This document shows, one piece after another, positions 10,574-16,041 of a stretch of DNA of 64,000 bases. The stretch is from assembly GCA_028871455.1 (NCBI GenBank), contig JAGWNF010000018.1, positions 1 through 64,000 of the forward strand. Direction: 5' to 3'. A program made the translations under genes and the position numbers. Source of the DNA: Alphaproteobacteria bacterium (GTDB lineage: Bacteria > Pseudomonadota > Alphaproteobacteria > ATCC43930 > CGMCC-115725). Numbering within the stretch: position 1 is the first letter of the stretch; each line of letters starts with the position of its first letter. Below the pieces are notes generated by a model, which saw only the letters and a program-made list of their open reading frames with translations, did no database searches and was not told the DNA's origin.

Positions 10574-11544
10574 CTGCGCCCGCGCTGAGCATCGTCATCC
10601 CCGTCTACAACGGCGCGCAGAGCATCGGCGCGCTGGTCGTAGCGCTCCAGGAGCTCGCGGTGCCAGGCGGCCACGAGATCGTGCTGGTCAACGACTGCAG
10701 CCCAGACAACAGCCTCGAAGTATGCCGGGGATTCTTGGTGCGGAGCCCGGTGCCGACCACCCTCATCGACCTGGCGCGCAATTTCGGCGAGCACAACGCC
10801 GTCGTCGCTGGGCTGCGCGAAGCACGCGGCGCGCACGTCATCACCATGGACGACGACCTGCAGAATCCGCCGGGCGAAGTAGTGCGCCTGCTGCAGCACG
10901 CGCATCGCACCGGCGCCGACGTGGTTTATGCCCGACCGATCGAGAAGCGGCACGCCGGCTGGCGCAACCTGGGCAGCCGCTTTGCCAACCGCATCGCCGA
11001 CCTCGTCCTCGACAAGCCGAAGGGGCTCTATCTTTCGAGCTTCCGCTGCCTCAGCGCCTTCGCGGTGCGTCAGGTCGTCGCCTACGAAGGGCCGTTTCCC
11101 TATGTCGACGGGCTGCTGCTGCAAGTGACGCAGCGGGTGGAGAGCCTCGCGGTCGAGCATCTGCCGCGCGCCCACGGCCGGAGCAACTACACGCCGCGCC
11201 GGCTGGTGCGGCTTTGGCTCAGCATGTTCGTCAACTTCTCGGTCATGCCGCTGCGGTTCTCGACCGTCACTGGCCTGGCGCTCAGCGCGCTCGGCATCGC
11301 CGGCGCGATCTGGGCCGCCGCGTCGGCACTTTTCTTCGAGAAGACGCCGCCCGGCTGGGCCTCGCTTACCGTCGCGGTAATGCTGCTGTCGGGCGTGCAG
11401 CTGCTGATCCTCGGGCTGCTCGGCGAATATCTCGGCCGGCTCTATCTCACGGTCAACCGCAAGCCGCAGACCGTCGTGCGCGAGGTGCTGCACAGTGAGG
11501 CGGCCGAGCGCGGCCAACAGCGCAGCGCGATACGGCGGGTCTGA
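10570..11544 (+). CDS. GT2 polyprenyl-phosphate glycosyltransferase (ArnC/GtrB-like)
   Basis: A 324-residue protein with a GT-A fold N-terminal domain: SIVIPVYNGA, VNDCSPDNSLEV, and the DxD-type metal site TMDDDLQNPPGEV (about residues 93-105). Two transmembrane helices occupy about residues 230-300. This architecture is that of ArnC, GtrB and DPM1-like enzymes, which charge undecaprenyl phosphate with a sugar on the cytosolic face. The start overlaps the methyltransferase stop (ATGA), and the stop abuts the flippase-like gene. Together with the GT39-like enzyme it forms a lipid-carrier glycosylation module. Confidence 0.88.
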   Translation: MTAPALSIVIPVYNGAQSIGALVVALQELAVPGGHEIVLVNDCSPDNSLEVCRGFLVRSPVPTTLIDLARNFGEHNAVVAGLREARGAHVITMDDDLQNPPGEVVRLLQHAHRTGADVVYARPIEKRHAGWRNLGSRFANRIADLVLDKPKGLYLSSFRCLSAFAVRQVVAYEGPFPYVDGLLLQVTQRVESLAVEHLPRAHGRSNYTPRRLVRLWLSMFVNFSVMPLRFSTVTGLALSALGIAGAIWAAASALFFEKTPPGWASLTVAVMLLSGVQLLILGLLGEYLGRLYLTVNRKPQTVVREVLHSEAAERGQQRSAIRRV

Positions 11545-11888
11545 TGCCGATTCTGTTTCCCTATTACGCGGCGCTGTTTGGCGGCATCCTGATCGCGGTC
11601 TGCGGCCAGCTCCTGCTCAAAGCCGGCGTGCAGGGCACACCCAGCCTGTTCGCGCAGATCACCAACGCATTCACCATCCTCGGCGTCGGCTTTTACGGCT
11701 GCGCAGCGTTCCTCTATCTCATCGCGCTGCGCAAGATTCCGCTGTCGGTCGCGTATCCGTCGGTCGCGGTCAGCTACATCGTCGTCGCCGTCGTGGCGCA
11801 TTTCTTCTGGGACGAGACCCTGACCGCCGGCAAGATCGCGGCGATCGCCCTCATCCTCGCCGGCGTCGCGCTGCTGCACCGCGCCTAG
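11544..11888 (+). CDS. Small DMT-family membrane protein (ArnE/EamA-like flippase subunit)
   Basis: A 114-residue protein with four transmembrane helices and the small multidrug resistance/EamA half-transporter layout. Proteins of this size next to an ArnC-like enzyme, such as ArnE and ArnF, flip the undecaprenyl-phosphate sugar across the inner membrane. It begins at the last base of the GT2 stop codon. The 3' end overlaps by 38 bases the convergent merR-like gene. Confidence 0.75.
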   Translation: MPILFPYYAALFGGILIAVCGQLLLKAGVQGTPSLFAQITNAFTILGVGFYGCAAFLYLIALRKIPLSVAYPSVAVSYIVVAVVAHFFWDETLTAGKIAAIALILAGVALLHRA

Positions 11889-12324
11889 ACCGCGCCGACC
11901 CGCGCTCGGCCGCCGGCGCGTCGGCGAGCGCTTCGATTACCGGGCAACCCGGCTCCTCGCCGGTCGCGCAGAGCGATACCGCGTCGCCGAGCAGCCGTTC
12001 CATCGCGCGAAGATCGGCGATTTTCGCCCGCACCGCCGCGAGGTGCGTGGCCGCCACTTGGCGCGCCTCGGCGCACGGACCGCCGCGCCGCTCGCGCGAG
12101 AGGGTCAGCAGCGTCCGCACGTCGTCGATCGCGAATCCCAGCGCGCGGGCGCGTCGCACGAAAGCCAGCCGCCGAACATCGGGCTCGCCGTAGAGGCGAT
12201 ACCGCCCGGCGCTGCGAGGCGCGGGCGGCATCAAGCCGATGCGCTCGTAATAGCGCACGGTCTCCACTTTGCAGCCCGTGCGCCGCGATAGTTCGCCGAT
12301 GGTCATCGGCCCGTGCCCGTGCAT
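11851..12324 (-). CDS. merR: MerR-type regulator with the mercury-sensing cysteine triad
   Basis: A 157-residue protein. Residues 7-75 form the MerR DNA-binding domain (MTIGELSRRTGC, VRYYERIGLM, YRLYGEPDVRRLAFVRRARA). Cysteines 84, 119 and 127 fall where MerR has its Hg(II)-binding Cys82, Cys117 and Cys126, including the C-x7-C spacing, so it most likely senses mercury. The C-terminus has an extra Arg/Ala-rich tail after residue 140. It is divergent from a MerT-like gene, across an operator with the unusual 19-bp spacer typical of MerR control. The start could also be the ATG at residue 7. Confidence 0.85.
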   Translation of the reverse strand: MHGHGPMTIGELSRRTGCKVETVRYYERIGLMPPAPRSAGRYRLYGEPDVRRLAFVRRARALGFAIDDVRTLLTLSRERRGGPCAEARQVAATHLAAVRAKIADLRAMERLLGDAVSLCATGEEPGCPVIEALADAPAAERGSARSRRGAAARRRRG

Positions 12325-12350
12325 CGCGCCTCCGGGGGAAAACTAATCCC

Positions 12351-12381
12351 TTGAGCCTGTAGCGACTACAGACCGTAACGT
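12351..12381 (+). promoter_or_regulatory. MerR-controlled promoter/operator
   Basis: TTGAGC (12351-12356) and TAACGT (12376-12381) act as -35 and -10 with a 19-bp spacer. The spacer holds the perfect dyad CTGTAG-CGA-CTACAG (12357-12371). Over-long spacers with a central dyad are the hallmark of promoters activated by MerR proteins through DNA untwisting; the -10 resembles the TAAGGT of Tn21/Tn501 mer. Transcription runs toward the MerT-like gene at 12411. Confidence 0.85.
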
Positions 12382-12410
12382 GTCGCCATGACGAATTCCA
12401 GGAGCCCGCG

Positions 12411-12779
12411 ATGTCCGATGACGTGAAGTCGACAGCCGCGCCGTTTTCGCGCCTGAGCCGGCTCCGCGCGATCGGACCGGTGGCGCTCGCGGCCAGCGGC
12501 GCGGCAGCGGCATTCGGCGCGGCTTCGTGCTGCGCCATACCGATGCTGCTCGGCGGCATCGGCTTGGGCGGCCTCGGATCGGCCATTTTCATGCCGGTTC
12601 TCGCGCCGTATCAGTCGTATCTGATCGCCGCCGCCGCGGTGTGCCTGGTCGCCGGCGGCGGATTGCTCTGGTGGCGCAACGCCTGCGCGTGCCGCGATGC
12701 GCGCGCCCTGACGGCGGTGACGCTCATCGGCTTGGTGCTGGGCGCCGCTCTGCTCGTGCTCGGCCTGAGTTACGGCTGA
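12411..12779 (+). CDS. merT: MerT-like mercuric ion transport protein
   Basis: A 122-residue inner-membrane protein with three predicted helices. The first helix carries a vicinal cysteine pair followed by a proline (ASCCAIPMLLGGIG, C40-C41), as in MerT, where it receives Hg(II) on the periplasmic side. A second cysteine pair (C92, C94) lies in the loop after helix 2, the MerT handover site to the cytosol. The N-terminus is about 15 residues longer than in classic MerT. First gene after the MerR-type promoter. No merA or merP is present nearby, so imported mercury would need another sink. Confidence 0.8.
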   Translation: MSDDVKSTAAPFSRLSRLRAIGPVALAASGAAAAFGAASCCAIPMLLGGIGLGGLGSAIFMPVLAPYQSYLIAAAAVCLVAGGGLLWWRNACACRDARALTAVTLIGLVLGAALLVLGLSYG

Positions 12780-12828
12780 CCGGCGCCGGCAATGAACCGT
12801 TCCCCGACCCGACAATAAGGAGACTTCC

Positions 12829-12999
12829 ATGGATCCGATCAAAGTCACGCTGTGCCCCGTCTGCGGCGGCTGCCCGAGCGTCGAAATTACCGACGACGCC
12901 GTCACCATCGGCGAAGACCGCAACACCGTGCGTCTCACACACGCCGAGTGGAACGACCTCGTCGCGCGCGTCCGGCGCGGCGAGTTGCACGAAGTGTGA
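12829..12999 (+). CDS. Small CxxCxxC protein in the mercury cassette (56 aa)
   Basis: A short gene with a strong AAGGAGA ribosome site. It starts MDPIKVTLCPVCGGCPSVEI, so its only cysteines form C-P-V-C-G-G-C at residues 9-15, a likely soft-metal or zinc site. The rest is a compact, acidic, strand-rich segment ending GELHEV. No named family is recognised. Its place between the MerT-like and the GDCCVxC-like genes suggests a cytosolic metal-binding partner that accepts mercury from the transporter. Its stop overlaps a possible GTG start of the next gene. Confidence 0.75.
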   Translation: MDPIKVTLCPVCGGCPSVEITDDAVTIGEDRNTVRLTHAEWNDLVARVRRGELHEV

Positions 13000-13007
13000 C
13001 CGCGCCG

Positions 13008-13208
13008 ATGCCGCTCATGGAATCGGTGGTCACCTGTCCGAGCTGCGGCGCTTCGCGGCGTGAAACCATGCCGACCACCGCCTGCATCGTGGTTTATCGC
13101 TGCACCGCCTGCGGTGCCGTGCTGCGGCCCAAAACTGGCATCTGCTGCGTCTTCTGCTCCTACGGCTCGGTGCCGTGTCCGCCGGTGCAGGCGGCGAACC
13201 GCGCCTAG
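13008..13208 (+). CDS. GDCCVxC-type cysteine-rich protein
   Basis: A 66-residue protein with four cysteine motifs: CPSC, CTAC, GICCVFCSYG and PCPP. The third matches the GDCCVxC domain (with I in place of D), a small family often encoded in mercury-resistance clusters, probably a metal-binding protein. Starts at 13008, 13017 (ATG) or 12996 (GTG, overlapping the previous stop) are all possible. The gene ends four bases inside the convergent aminotransferase gene. Last gene of the merT-like operon. Confidence 0.8.
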   Translation: MPLMESVVTCPSCGASRRETMPTTACIVVYRCTACGAVLRPKTGICCVFCSYGSVPCPPVQAANRA

Positions 13209-14326
13209 AGCGAAGCCTTTACCGCCGCGATCACGCGCGCCACGTCGGCGGCGGCAAGCTCCGGGAACATCGGCAGGCTCAGGATCTCGCGCGCGGCGCG
13301 CTCGCTTTCGCCGAGACCGCCGGGATCGAGCGCCAGCCGTTCGCGATAGGCCGGCTGCAGATGGATCGGCACCGGATAATGCACGGCGGTGCCGATGCCG
13401 GCGCGGCCAAGCGCCGCGCGAAGCCGGTCGCGCGCCGCGCTGCGCAGGACGTATTGATGGAAAACGTGCGTCGCGCCGGGCCGGCGCTGCGGCAGGCCGA
13501 GACCGGTGCGCGCCAGGCCCCGATCGTAGCGCGCGGCGATGGTATTGCGGCGCGCATTGGCACGATCGAGACCCGTGAGCTTGACGCGCAGCACCGCGGC
13601 CTGGAGCGGATCGAGTCGCGTGTTCATGCCCGGCAGGGCGCTGACATAGCGGTCGCGCCAGCCATACTCGCGCAGCTCACGCAGGCGCGTCGCAAGATTG
13701 TCGTCGTCGGTCAGCACCGCGCCGGCATCGCCGAAGGCGCCGAGATTCTTGGTCGGATAGAAGCTGAAGCAGGCGGCGTCGCCGAAGCCGCCGAGCCGCC
13801 GGCCATCGAGCGCCGCACCGTGGCATTGCGCGCAATCCTCGATCAGCTTCGCGCCGCATCGCCGCGCCAGCGGCAGCAGCGCCTCGAGATCGGCCGCTTG
13901 GCCATAGAGATGGACGACGATCACCGCCGCGATGCGGCGACCGCCGGCGAGCGCGCGCTCAAGTGCGGCCGGTGCGAGCGTGTAGCTGGCCGGATCGATG
14001 TCAAGCAGCAGCGGCTTCAGACCGGCGAGCTCGATCGCGGCGACGGTCGCGACGGCGGTATGCGCGGCGGTCGCCACCGTCGCACCCGTGGGCAGTTGCA
14101 ACGCGCGCAGCGCGAGCGTCAGCGCGTCGGTGCCCGAGGCGACGCCCACCGCGTGCCGACATCCGACATAGCCGGCGAACTCGCGCTCGAACGCTTCGAC
14201 CTCCGGACCGAGGATGTAGCTGCCGCCGGCCAGCACGCGTGCGACGGCGCGATCGATACGCGCGCGCACCGCGCGATAGGATGCGAGCGGCGCCGCCTGC
14301 GGAACGGATCGGCCGCGCGTCGGCAT
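13205..14326 (-). CDS. DegT/DnrJ/EryC1/StrS family sugar aminotransferase
   Basis: A 373-residue PLP enzyme. FSFYPTKNLGAFGDAGAVL (about residues 178-196) carries the Schiff-base lysine in the family's S-x-x-x-x-K-N-L-G pattern, and the N-terminal region has the YVGCRHAVGVASGTDALTLA substrate and phosphate loop. Such enzymes aminate nucleotide-linked keto-sugars. It follows the SDR gene by four bases, so the two are an operon and probably successive steps toward an aminosugar. They lie near the glycosyltransferase module (6996-11888), which could use the product. Confidence 0.9.
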   Translation of the reverse strand: MPTRGRSVPQAAPLASYRAVRARIDRAVARVLAGGSYILGPEVEAFEREFAGYVGCRHAVGVASGTDALTLALRALQLPTGATVATAAHTAVATVAAIELAGLKPLLLDIDPASYTLAPAALERALAGGRRIAAVIVVHLYGQAADLEALLPLARRCGAKLIEDCAQCHGAALDGRRLGGFGDAACFSFYPTKNLGAFGDAGAVLTDDDNLATRLRELREYGWRDRYVSALPGMNTRLDPLQAAVLRVKLTGLDRANARRNTIAARYDRGLARTGLGLPQRRPGATHVFHQYVLRSAARDRLRAALGRAGIGTAVHYPVPIHLQPAYRERLALDPGGLGESERAAREILSLPMFPELAAADVARVIAAVKASL

Positions 14327-14330
14327 GGCC

Positions 14331-15326
14331 TCAGAGATAGGCCGCGAGGTGATCGCGGTAATATTCGAGCGTCCGCGTCAGGCCGTCGTTCAGCGTGACA
14401 CGCGGCTTCCAGCCGGTGATGCGGCGAAACAGGCGATCGTCGGCATGATAATCGCCGATGTCGATCCGCTTGCGCGCGTCCGGAAACGGCTCGACGACGT
14501 AGTCGCCGCCGCCATTGGCCGCGACCAGCGCATCCGCCAGCCGCTTCAGCGCGATACGCCGGCCGCCGCCGATGTTGAAAGCGCCGCCTTCGGCCTCGGT
14601 GACGGCCGCCGCCAGAAGCAATGCCTCGACCGCATCGTCGACATAGGTGAGATCGCGCAGCTGCTCGCCTTCCCAGACCTCGAATGGCCGGCCTTCGAGC
14701 ACCGCGCGCAGCCAGGCGCCGAGGAACGTCTGCCGCGCATCCTTGATCCGCATGCGCGGTCCGTAGGTGTTGGTCAGGCGCAGCACCGCCGACTTGACAC
14801 CGTACACCTCGCGATAGAGCGCATGATAAGCCTCGGCCGCGAGCTTGTGGATGCCGTTGACGTCGACCGGCGCCAGCGGATGCTGCTCGTCGACCGGCAG
14901 ATAATGCGGCTTGCCGTAGACCTGCCGGGTCGAGGCGAAGACCACGAAGGCCTCCGGCGCCGCCTTGCGGCAGGCCTCGAGCAGGCGCAGCGCGACCCGG
15001 CAATTGAGGTCCAGATCGTCGAGCGGCGCGTCCATCGAGCCCTGGTGGCTGGTCTGGCCGGCTAGATTGAACAGGTATTCGCGGCCTTCGACGAACGGAA
15101 TGGCGTCCGCCTCGCGCAAATCAGCGACCTCGACGGCGAGGCGGCCGTGCGCGCCGTCGAGATTATGGCGGTTGCCGCCGAGACCGGGCAGCAGTGCGTC
15201 GACGACCAGGACCTCGGCGCCGAGATCGCCGAGCCGGCGCGCCAGGTTCGAGCCGATGAAGCCGAGGCCGCCGGCGATGGTCACGCGCGCGCCGGCAAAA
15301 GCGGCGCGCAGCGTCTCTTCGCTCAT
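14331..15326 (-). CDS. NAD-dependent epimerase/dehydratase (extended SDR)
   Basis: A 331-residue protein with the nucleotide-binding motif IAGGLGFIGSNLARRLGDLG (about residues 16-35). The middle carries FASTRQVYGKPHYLPVDEQH and later RLTNTYGPRMR, typical of sugar-nucleotide SDRs. The active-site YxxxK position appears as NGIHK (about residue 150), so the usual tyrosine is absent; I recall the same N-G-I-x-K pattern in a distinct subfamily, which suggests a specific rather than broken enzyme. First gene of a two-gene operon with the aminotransferase. Confidence 0.85.
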   Translation of the reverse strand: MSEETLRAAFAGARVTIAGGLGFIGSNLARRLGDLGAEVLVVDALLPGLGGNRHNLDGAHGRLAVEVADLREADAIPFVEGREYLFNLAGQTSHQGSMDAPLDDLDLNCRVALRLLEACRKAAPEAFVVFASTRQVYGKPHYLPVDEQHPLAPVDVNGIHKLAAEAYHALYREVYGVKSAVLRLTNTYGPRMRIKDARQTFLGAWLRAVLEGRPFEVWEGEQLRDLTYVDDAVEALLLAAAVTEAEGGAFNIGGGRRIALKRLADALVAANGGGDYVVEPFPDARKRIDIGDYHADDRLFRRITGWKPRVTLNDGLTRTLEYYRDHLAAYL

Positions 15327-15423: not shown

Positions 15424-16041
15424 ATGCCGCCGCGGAGCCCATGGCTGCGGGATGCCTTGCTCGTCGTCGCGCTGGCCTTGGCCGGCTGCGTGCCGCACCA
15501 TCGGCCGCCGCCGGTCGTCCATCTGTCGCCCGAAATCTGCCTCGCCGATCTCGATCGTCTGCACGTGCAGTACGTCAGGGCGGAAGCCCCCGAAGGGCCG
15601 TGCCCGGTCTATGACGCGGTGCGCGTCAGCGCCGACGGCGTTCCGTGGAATCCACCCGGGCTCGTCACCTGCGATCTGGCGCTGCGCTTCAATCGATTCG
15701 TCACCGAAGTCGTGCAGCCTGCCGCGCAGCGGTATCTGCACGCCTCGGTGACCGAACTGCGCCAGTTCGGCACCTATTCATGCCGTGGCCAGCCCAACGG
15801 CGAATGGAGCGAGCACGCCAAGGGTGATGCGATCGACGTCGCGGGCTTCACGCTCGACAACGGCGACGTCGTGACGGTCGAGCGCGACTGGCGCGGCGAC
15901 GGGCCGAAGAGCGAATTCCTGCACGCGGTGGCGCGCGGTGCCTGCGGGCTCTTCAACATCGTGCTGACGCCGCACACCAACTACGACCACCGCAATCACG
16001 TCCATTTCGACATCGGTCCGTGGAAGGACTGCAGCGTGTGA
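15424..16041 (+). CDS. Extensin-family lipoprotein
   Basis: A 205-residue protein. The N-terminal hydrophobic stretch ends in LALAGC, a lipobox, so it is probably a lipoprotein of the cell envelope. The body matches the extensin-like C-terminal family: TCDLALRFNRFV, SCRGQPNGEWSEHAKGDAID and the final HRNHVHFDIG, whose histidines and aspartates resemble metal-binding peptidoglycan peptidases. Four or more cysteines suggest periplasmic disulfides. The ATG at 15424 places the signal at the start. It stands alone between divergent and convergent neighbours. Confidence 0.85.
   Translation: MPPRSPWLRDALLVVALALAGCVPHHRPPPVVHLSPEICLADLDRLHVQYVRAEAPEGPCPVYDAVRVSADGVPWNPPGLVTCDLALRFNRFVTEVVQPAAQRYLHASVTELRQFGTYSCRGQPNGEWSEHAKGDAIDVAGFTLDNGDVVTVERDWRGDGPKSEFLHAVARGACGLFNIVLTPHTNYDHRNHVHFDIGPWKDCSV

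Follow-up and report, generated by a model that had tools for sequence, protein, structure and literature searches.

A cassette without merA that sets a MerR-family regulator and a MerT-like protein beside two small cysteine proteins in an alphaproteobacterial genus

How might a bacterium retain what looks like a mercury importer with no mercuric reductase beside it, when importers without that enzyme are expected to poison the cell? The question is raised by a four-gene cassette at positions 11851-13208 of a stretch of 64,000 nucleotides (the window) from Alphaproteobacteria bacterium (GTDB lineage ending in ATCC43930; CGMCC-115725; assembly GCA_028871455.1, contig JAGWNF010000018.1), which makes up nearly all of the 64,435-bp contig, here C43, of a 3.0 Mb genome in 51 contigs. 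In this cassette a gene for a MerR-family regulator is divergent from the genes for a MerT-like protein, a 56-residue CPxCxxCP protein and a 66-residue protein of the GDCCVxC family (NF041374, GOS_B), and neither merP nor merA is present. We propose, with roughly an even chance of being right, that it is a MerR-controlled unit that imports and holds mercury without MerA.

The classical mer operon of the Tn21/Tn501 type comprises MerR, a divergent promoter with a long spacer, the MerT carrier, merP, merA and merD. The cassette shares with it a MerR with a cysteine triad, a divergent long-spacer promoter with a dyad and a MerT-like carrier, and differs from it in having no merP, merA or merD. 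The regulator gene lies on the minus strand (11851-12324, with a possible alternative start at Met7), and three genes lie on the plus strand: that of the 122-residue MerT-like protein (12411-12779, preceded by ccaggag), by eye a membrane protein; that of the 56-residue protein (12829-12999, preceded by aaggag), which by eye has no signal peptide and occupies the merP position; and that of the GDCCVxC-family protein (13008-13208), which starts 8 bp past the preceding stop and has a second ATG at 13017. An initial annotation, made from the sequence alone, had placed all four open reading frames where we find them and had described a MerR/MerT-type cassette in which two small cysteine proteins stand in for merP and merA. 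The gene content bears this out: Pfam and NCBIfam searches with the 56-residue protein found no heavy-metal-associated domain, and MerT is followed by the 56-residue and GDCCVxC genes, with no merP among them.

The four genes recur, behind one shared upstream neighbour, in three congeners, namely the window's genome and two others represented by the regions L021 (taken as a contig of genome G038) and L020 (taken as a contig of genome G039). Conservation is highest for the 56-residue protein, which is 86% identical to its two congeneric counterparts and 53% identical to that of G011, a genome of another genus. Among the congeners its gene shows a nonsynonymous divergence (dN) of 0.09-0.10 against a synonymous divergence (dS) of 0.68-1.06 (about 0.10 against 0.97-1.06 when the window's gene is compared with the other two), and it is thus under purifying selection, as are the MerT and GDCCVxC genes and, in the single pair measured, MerR. 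These ratios, together with the conservation, rule out chance open reading frames.

We then examined the relationship of the cassette to merA. Two MerA genes over the family cut-off, each among other mer genes, are present elsewhere in the window's genome (C14:79029-80414 and C41:10234-11616), so that the cassette is not the only mercury system of this cell and import feeding MerA in trans is possible in this strain. The initial annotation had set its merA-less route against a merA gene nearby in the full genome; the cassette itself and C43, which gave no MerA match, accord with the former, while the two genes on other contigs go some way towards the latter. Beyond this strain, G038 (100% complete, 5% contaminated) and G039 (85% complete, 7% contaminated) carry the cassette with no MerA over the cut-off, and G011 (87% complete) likewise has none; conversely, G040, a further congener (99% complete), has MerA and neither of the small genes. 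The best match of the MerA profile in G038, the match to which this typing applies, has a CLNIGCIPSK site, lacks a C-terminal CC and corresponds to a protein also present in the window's genome, and we accordingly interpret it as a protein of dihydrolipoyl-dehydrogenase type. As a separate observation, each MerA gene of the window's genome is accompanied by one for a second disulfide-oxidoreductase-like protein with the motif CALRGCDPKK, which falls below the MerA cut-off (L009 5535-7067 on C14; L010 6638-8029 on C41).

To place the cassette in a wider context we surveyed 385 genomes of the class, among which the GDCCVxC protein is found in 60 and MerA over the cut-off in 35, with 12 genomes having both (Fisher p 0.005, uncorrected for kinship). 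We read 63 of the 65 GDCCVxC places over the cut-off, all except that of the window itself and one lying at the edge of a contig, and used MerT and MerF profiles built in this analysis; the MerF profile was made from four loci (L076, L084, L086 and L089) that match it by construction, all four also match the MerT profile, and the L086 protein is over the Pfam MerF cut-off. At 23 of the 63 loci a MerT or MerF gene lies upstream on the same strand, no more than 1.5 kb away; MerR lies within 2 kb at 18, MerR and MerT/MerF occur together at 13, and MerP is found at 6. MerA over the cut-off is present in only 3 of the 23 genomes with a MerT/MerF-GDCCVxC unit, a share close to the 35/385 of the whole sample, and is absent from 20, of which 18 are at least 90% complete, although a highly divergent MerA under the cut-off would escape this count. 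Just one of the 23 loci has a MerA-type oxidoreductase within 4 kb. These 20 genomes, together with the two congeners, support independence from merA. At two of the loci (L084 and L089) the order is MerT, then MerF, then GDCCVxC, MerF filling the slot that the 56-residue protein holds in the window.

Comparable arrangements are found on plasmids, where the GDCCVxC protein has matches in 349 of 72,556 records. We read 16 plasmid regions, drawn non-randomly from lists of the best and of spread matches. Three show MerR-MerT-GDCCVxC (L026, L027 and L028), the MerT-like protein of L027 being annotated as 'mercuric reductase' yet only 122 residues long, and four show MerR-MerT-MerP-GDCCVxC (L029, L032, L037 and L041). 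Of these, L032, from pUM505, has a separate merA operon about 5 kb away. In L033 merR and merP are separated by an insertion sequence and no merT is annotated, L036 combines MerT-GDCCVxC with a separate merA operon beside it, and in L035 and L038 an oxidoreductase precedes GDCCVxC. Among viral-contig loci of the GDCCVxC protein, MerT stands upstream in four of five.

The two MerA genes elsewhere in the window's genome suggest an alternative, in which an ordinary mer system is spread over several places in this genome and the cassette contributes only import and relay of Hg(II), detoxification falling to MerA from the two other operons. The above-chance co-occurrence of MerA and GDCCVxC in the class sample fits with this, as does a precedent: according to the accessible part of one report, the merA-less transposon Tn5563a reduced the minimum inhibitory concentration of mercury in six strains and increased it in two, and its authors considered that the gain in tolerance in the two might come from a chromosomal merA (PMC4447125). 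On such an account, however, it is not expected that the two congeneric genomes and G011 should have the genes with no MerA over the cut-off, that MerA should be near its background frequency in unit-bearing genomes, or that G040 should have merA and neither small gene. Hence, we regard this alternative as rather improbable.

The case for mercury begins with the regulator, which has cysteines at positions 18, 84, 119 and 127, the last three forming the MerR triad recognized by the initial annotation. Their spacing (35/8) is shared with another MerR of this genome, encoded divergently from the merA operon on contig C14. The top NCBIfam match is TIGR02051, at 111.4 bits; this is under the cut-off of 150.85, yet it is the best score among the metal-sensor models (CueR 103.7, a Zn-regulator model 99.1, CadR-PbrR 97.8 and ZntR 89.8 bits). 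The merA-linked MerR of C14 is likewise sub-cut-off at 118.3 bits, and therefore the cut-off cannot separate merA-linked from other MerRs here. In a tree of 36 MerRs, where 9 of the 33 inner branches have good support, the regulator of the window falls in a supported clade of eight (98/90) with those of the other two congeners and of L022, L027, L028, L095 and L148, the L022 regulator adjoining a 56-residue gene only. No member of this clade has merA in the 3-10 kb read around each, and the three merA-linked MerRs of the tree (L009, L036 and L139) fall outside it.

The 86-bp intergenic stretch contains a MerR-type promoter for the MerT operon (12351-12381, plus strand), with TTGAGC (12351-12356), a 19-bp spacer and TAACGT (12376-12381), and with the dyad CTGTAG-CGA-CTACAG (12357-12371) between the hexamers. 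The promoter with its 19-bp spacer and dyad is as the initial annotation had it, even though an alternative reading with 17 bp (TTGAGC, then CGTAAC) agrees with the consensus just as closely in the window, and more closely in L020; since consensus alone does not favour 19 bp, the argument for that spacing is the resemblance to MerR promoters. A dyad of this size, with 6-bp arms, arose somewhere in the stretch in 197 of 2000 single-base shuffles and is not rare in itself. We nevertheless judge it to be real because of its placement between the hexamers and its conservation in the two congeners, where the same promoter site has 7-bp arms. In a scan of nine regions that included these two, 19-bp spacers were also found in L027 and L028 (arms of 9 and 8 bp), and, with other dyads, a 19-bp spacer in L037 and a 20-bp spacer in L032; L018 has equal spacing with arms of only 4 bp, and the scan gave no promoter match in L026.

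The transporter was called MerT in the initial annotation. It scores 16.7 bits against Pfam MerT (PF02411), under the gathering cut-off of 32.9, and for this reason we name it MerT-like only; the congeneric proteins score 16 and 15.1 bits, and the related L028 protein, at 37, is over the cut-off. In favour of the earlier name are its adjacent N-terminal pair Cys40-Cys41 (ASCCAIP), kept in both congeners, and its similarity to the MerT-like protein of L095 (45% identity across 108 residues). The pair presumably lies in the first membrane helix, and Cys92 and Cys94 follow further along.

That both MerR and the MerT-like protein are under their family cut-offs leaves room for a cassette whose MerR-like sensor and MerT-like carrier serve some other thiophilic metal or metalloid (Cd, Pb, Cu/Ag or As). 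Several metal-sensor models score near the 111.4 bits of TIGR02051, and GDCCVxC genes also occur beside arsenic and copper genes. In opposition to this, the merA-linked MerR of C14 has equal triad spacing and is itself sub-cut-off, and the recurrent genes directly upstream of GDCCVxC are those of MerT, MerF and MerP. We thus give this second alternative a low probability.

The last protein of the cassette had been termed GDCCVxC-like, and it does belong to that family by its match to the NF041374 hidden Markov model (94.5 bits; cut-off 40), although the literal motif is absent: it reads GICCVFC. The protein further has two CxxC pairs, Cys26 and Cys57. Within the genus the motif varies between GICC (window) and GSCC and GTCC (congeners), whereas outside it GDCCV[FY]C is found in 79 of 83 relatives and a terminal CC, which the window's protein also lacks, in 58 of 83; these counts derive from 91 distinct loci, in 86 of which the motif was found, three of them from the genus. 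In three relatives (L122, L130 and L134) the codon for a conserved cysteine is replaced by an in-frame TGA, in two of them at TDxC and in the third at GDC-U. Since the two positions differ, selenocysteine may occur at more than one site in this family. NF041374 is listed as the hypothetical protein GOS_B in the accessible part of one study, which gives no function there (PMC13188914), and the available text of another describes GOS_B as a selenoprotein discovered in ocean metagenomes (PMC2398784).

Such departures, with the altered MerT loop cysteines, the missing MerP and MerA, and the term defective applied in the accessible text on p10265-KPC to its Tn5563 copy (PMC4785139), could also be those of a decaying mer locus from which merP and merA have already gone and which is itself being lost, a reading that we consider very unlikely given the purifying selection on the 56-residue, MerT and GDCCVxC genes, the promoter dyad and gene order kept in three species, and the recurrence of MerT/MerF-GDCCVxC units in 23 genomes of the class.

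The 56-residue protein, with a CPVCGGC motif and cysteines at positions 9, 12 and 15, has no family over the cut-off in Pfam or NCBIfam and no match among the PHROG families; one PHROG matches one of four relatives with an E-value of 0.065. A match of its alignment to a formylmethanofuran dehydrogenase subunit in the PDB (E-value 0.0041) was judged to be due to chance, and structure predictions of both small proteins are poor (mean predicted local distance difference test scores, pLDDT, of 60 and 57). Genome searches for its relatives covered the window's phylum, and distant relatives may be missed. Among 43 genomes of the order it is clearly present in four: the window's genome (G000), G038, G039 and G011, the last with the 56-residue gene divergent from MerR on one contig and MerT-GDCCVxC on another. 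A fifth match, in G006 (23 residues, E-value 3.9e-4), was dropped as there is no comparable open reading frame; G006 has no GDCCVxC. In the class sample five of 385 genomes, including the window's own, match at E-value <=0.01, the four others being partial matches (E-value 0.004-0.009) that were not counted. In a sample of 398 genomes of the phylum only the window's own matches at E-value <=0.001, and no relatives were found in the plasmids, phages or viral contigs searched. All four genomes with a clear 56-residue protein have GDCCVxC, as against 8 of the 43 overall (hypergeometric 0.0006, uncorrected for kinship), so that the co-occurrence for which the initial annotation had suggested looking is indeed seen, with three of the four genomes being congeners. 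As judged from these searches, a 56-residue protein in the place of MerP appears to be a feature particular to this lineage, seen in three congeners and one other genus.

Under the merA-less import-and-hold reading, Hg(II) would be sensed by MerR via its cysteine triad, switching on the divergent promoter, and would be carried into the cell by the MerT-like protein. The CPxCxxCP and GDCCVxC proteins would then accept it from MerT and buffer or relay it. In this strain, with MerA available, Hg(II) could go on to that enzyme, while in the two congeneric genomes without it Hg(II) would end bound to the small proteins or to small thiols. In this scheme we infer which metal is handled, that it is bound, as in the sequestration put forward by the initial annotation, in what sequence it is passed along and what finally becomes of it; gene content and order, the promoter, selection, conservation and the occurrence without merA are what the sequences show. 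Extending the proposal, one might tentatively see in MerT or MerF with GDCCVxC (GOS_B) a widespread MerA-independent route for Hg(II), with a small cysteine or selenocysteine protein as the terminal acceptor and, in the present lineage, a cytosolic 56-residue carrier replacing MerP; we hold this to be possible while leaning against it. If the GDCCVxC protein does make import safe in the 20 class genomes that have it attached to MerT/MerF units and no MerA over the cut-off, a hypothetical selenoprotein family would gain a function and the puzzle of mer loci without merA would become a question for the bench; the 56-residue protein would be a lineage-specific metal carrier of very small size.

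Several observations weigh against the import-and-hold reading. Two full MerA genes are present in the genome to which the window belongs; MerR and MerT fall under their family cut-offs, which weakens the case for Hg specificity; the second MerT cysteine pair varies within the genus (C-A-C, C-A-C-C or one C); and the window's GDCCVxC protein is without the D and the terminal CC. The more frequent effect of Tn5563a, namely the lowered mercury tolerance of six strains, hardly resembles efficient sequestration. Moreover, 40 of the 63 class loci have no MerT or MerF upstream, and five plasmid copies (L030, L031, L034, L039 and L040) lie in an arsenic operon or without adjoining mer genes. In view of these 40 loci and five copies, the GDCCVxC family is broader than the MerT/MerF unit and extends beyond mercury. 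The settings of the gene in L030 and L040, next to DUF2182/DUF1326 genes and within an arsenic operon (ACR3, ArsC), suggest roles beyond mercury.

Cassettes of the mer type without merA are already known. The accessible text on p10265-KPC gives Tn5563 as tnpR, orf2, pilT, tnpA, merP, merT and merR, calls it a 'defective mer locus' in that copy, and states that pUM505 holds a truncated Tn5563 (PMC4785139). Tn5563 and Tn5563a of Pseudomonas resemble the window's cassette in having MerR and MerT and no merA; in contrast, Tn5563 is a Tn3-family transposon with merP, whereas the window's cassette occupies a site common to three congeners and has the 56-residue protein at the merP position. In pUM505 a GDCCVxC gene directly follows merP, and NZ_KU578314 (38,939 bp, the size stated for p10265-KPC) also carries one. 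This gene is missing from the Tn5563 gene list (PMC4785139) and from the three-gene description of Tn5563a (PMC4447125), as far as the accessible parts of these papers extend. In Pseudomonas pseudoalcaligenes the merA-less merP1T1R5 is, by the available portion of the report, strongly induced by Hg, with merP1 and merT1 above the merA-cluster genes (PMC10433974). Closest in layout are the MerR-MerT-GDCCVxC cassettes of L026, L027, L028, L095 and L148, which share the gene order, the divergent MerR and the lack of merA in the cassette, and of which all except L026 have MerRs in the clade of the window's regulator. They differ in having no 56-residue gene between MerT and GDCCVxC, and in their motifs: GDCC with a terminal CC in L026, L027, L028 and L095, and GHCC with no terminal CC in L148. 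In the literature searched, which included the accessible part of PMC9312934 and did not extend to the 1998 Tn5563 paper, we found no link of the GDCCVxC/GOS_B family to mercury, and neither the additional lineage-restricted cysteine protein nor the broader association of GOS_B with mercury importers was found remarked on.

Around the cassette, the upstream neighbour (11544-11888) is common to both congeners, with 97/114 and 98/114 residues identical. The downstream gene ending at 16041 is common to L021 (153/195 residues), where it comes directly after the cassette; the L020 contig stops 151 bases beyond the cassette. As both flanking genes are common to L021 and C43 has no MerA match, an ordinary mer operon split by the assembly is ruled out. 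A mobile element was also considered, and the neighbouring open reading frames read showed no transposase or other sign of one. In the window, a DegT-type aminotransferase and an epimerase, both recognized by eye (13205-15326), separate the cassette from the gene that adjoins it in L021.

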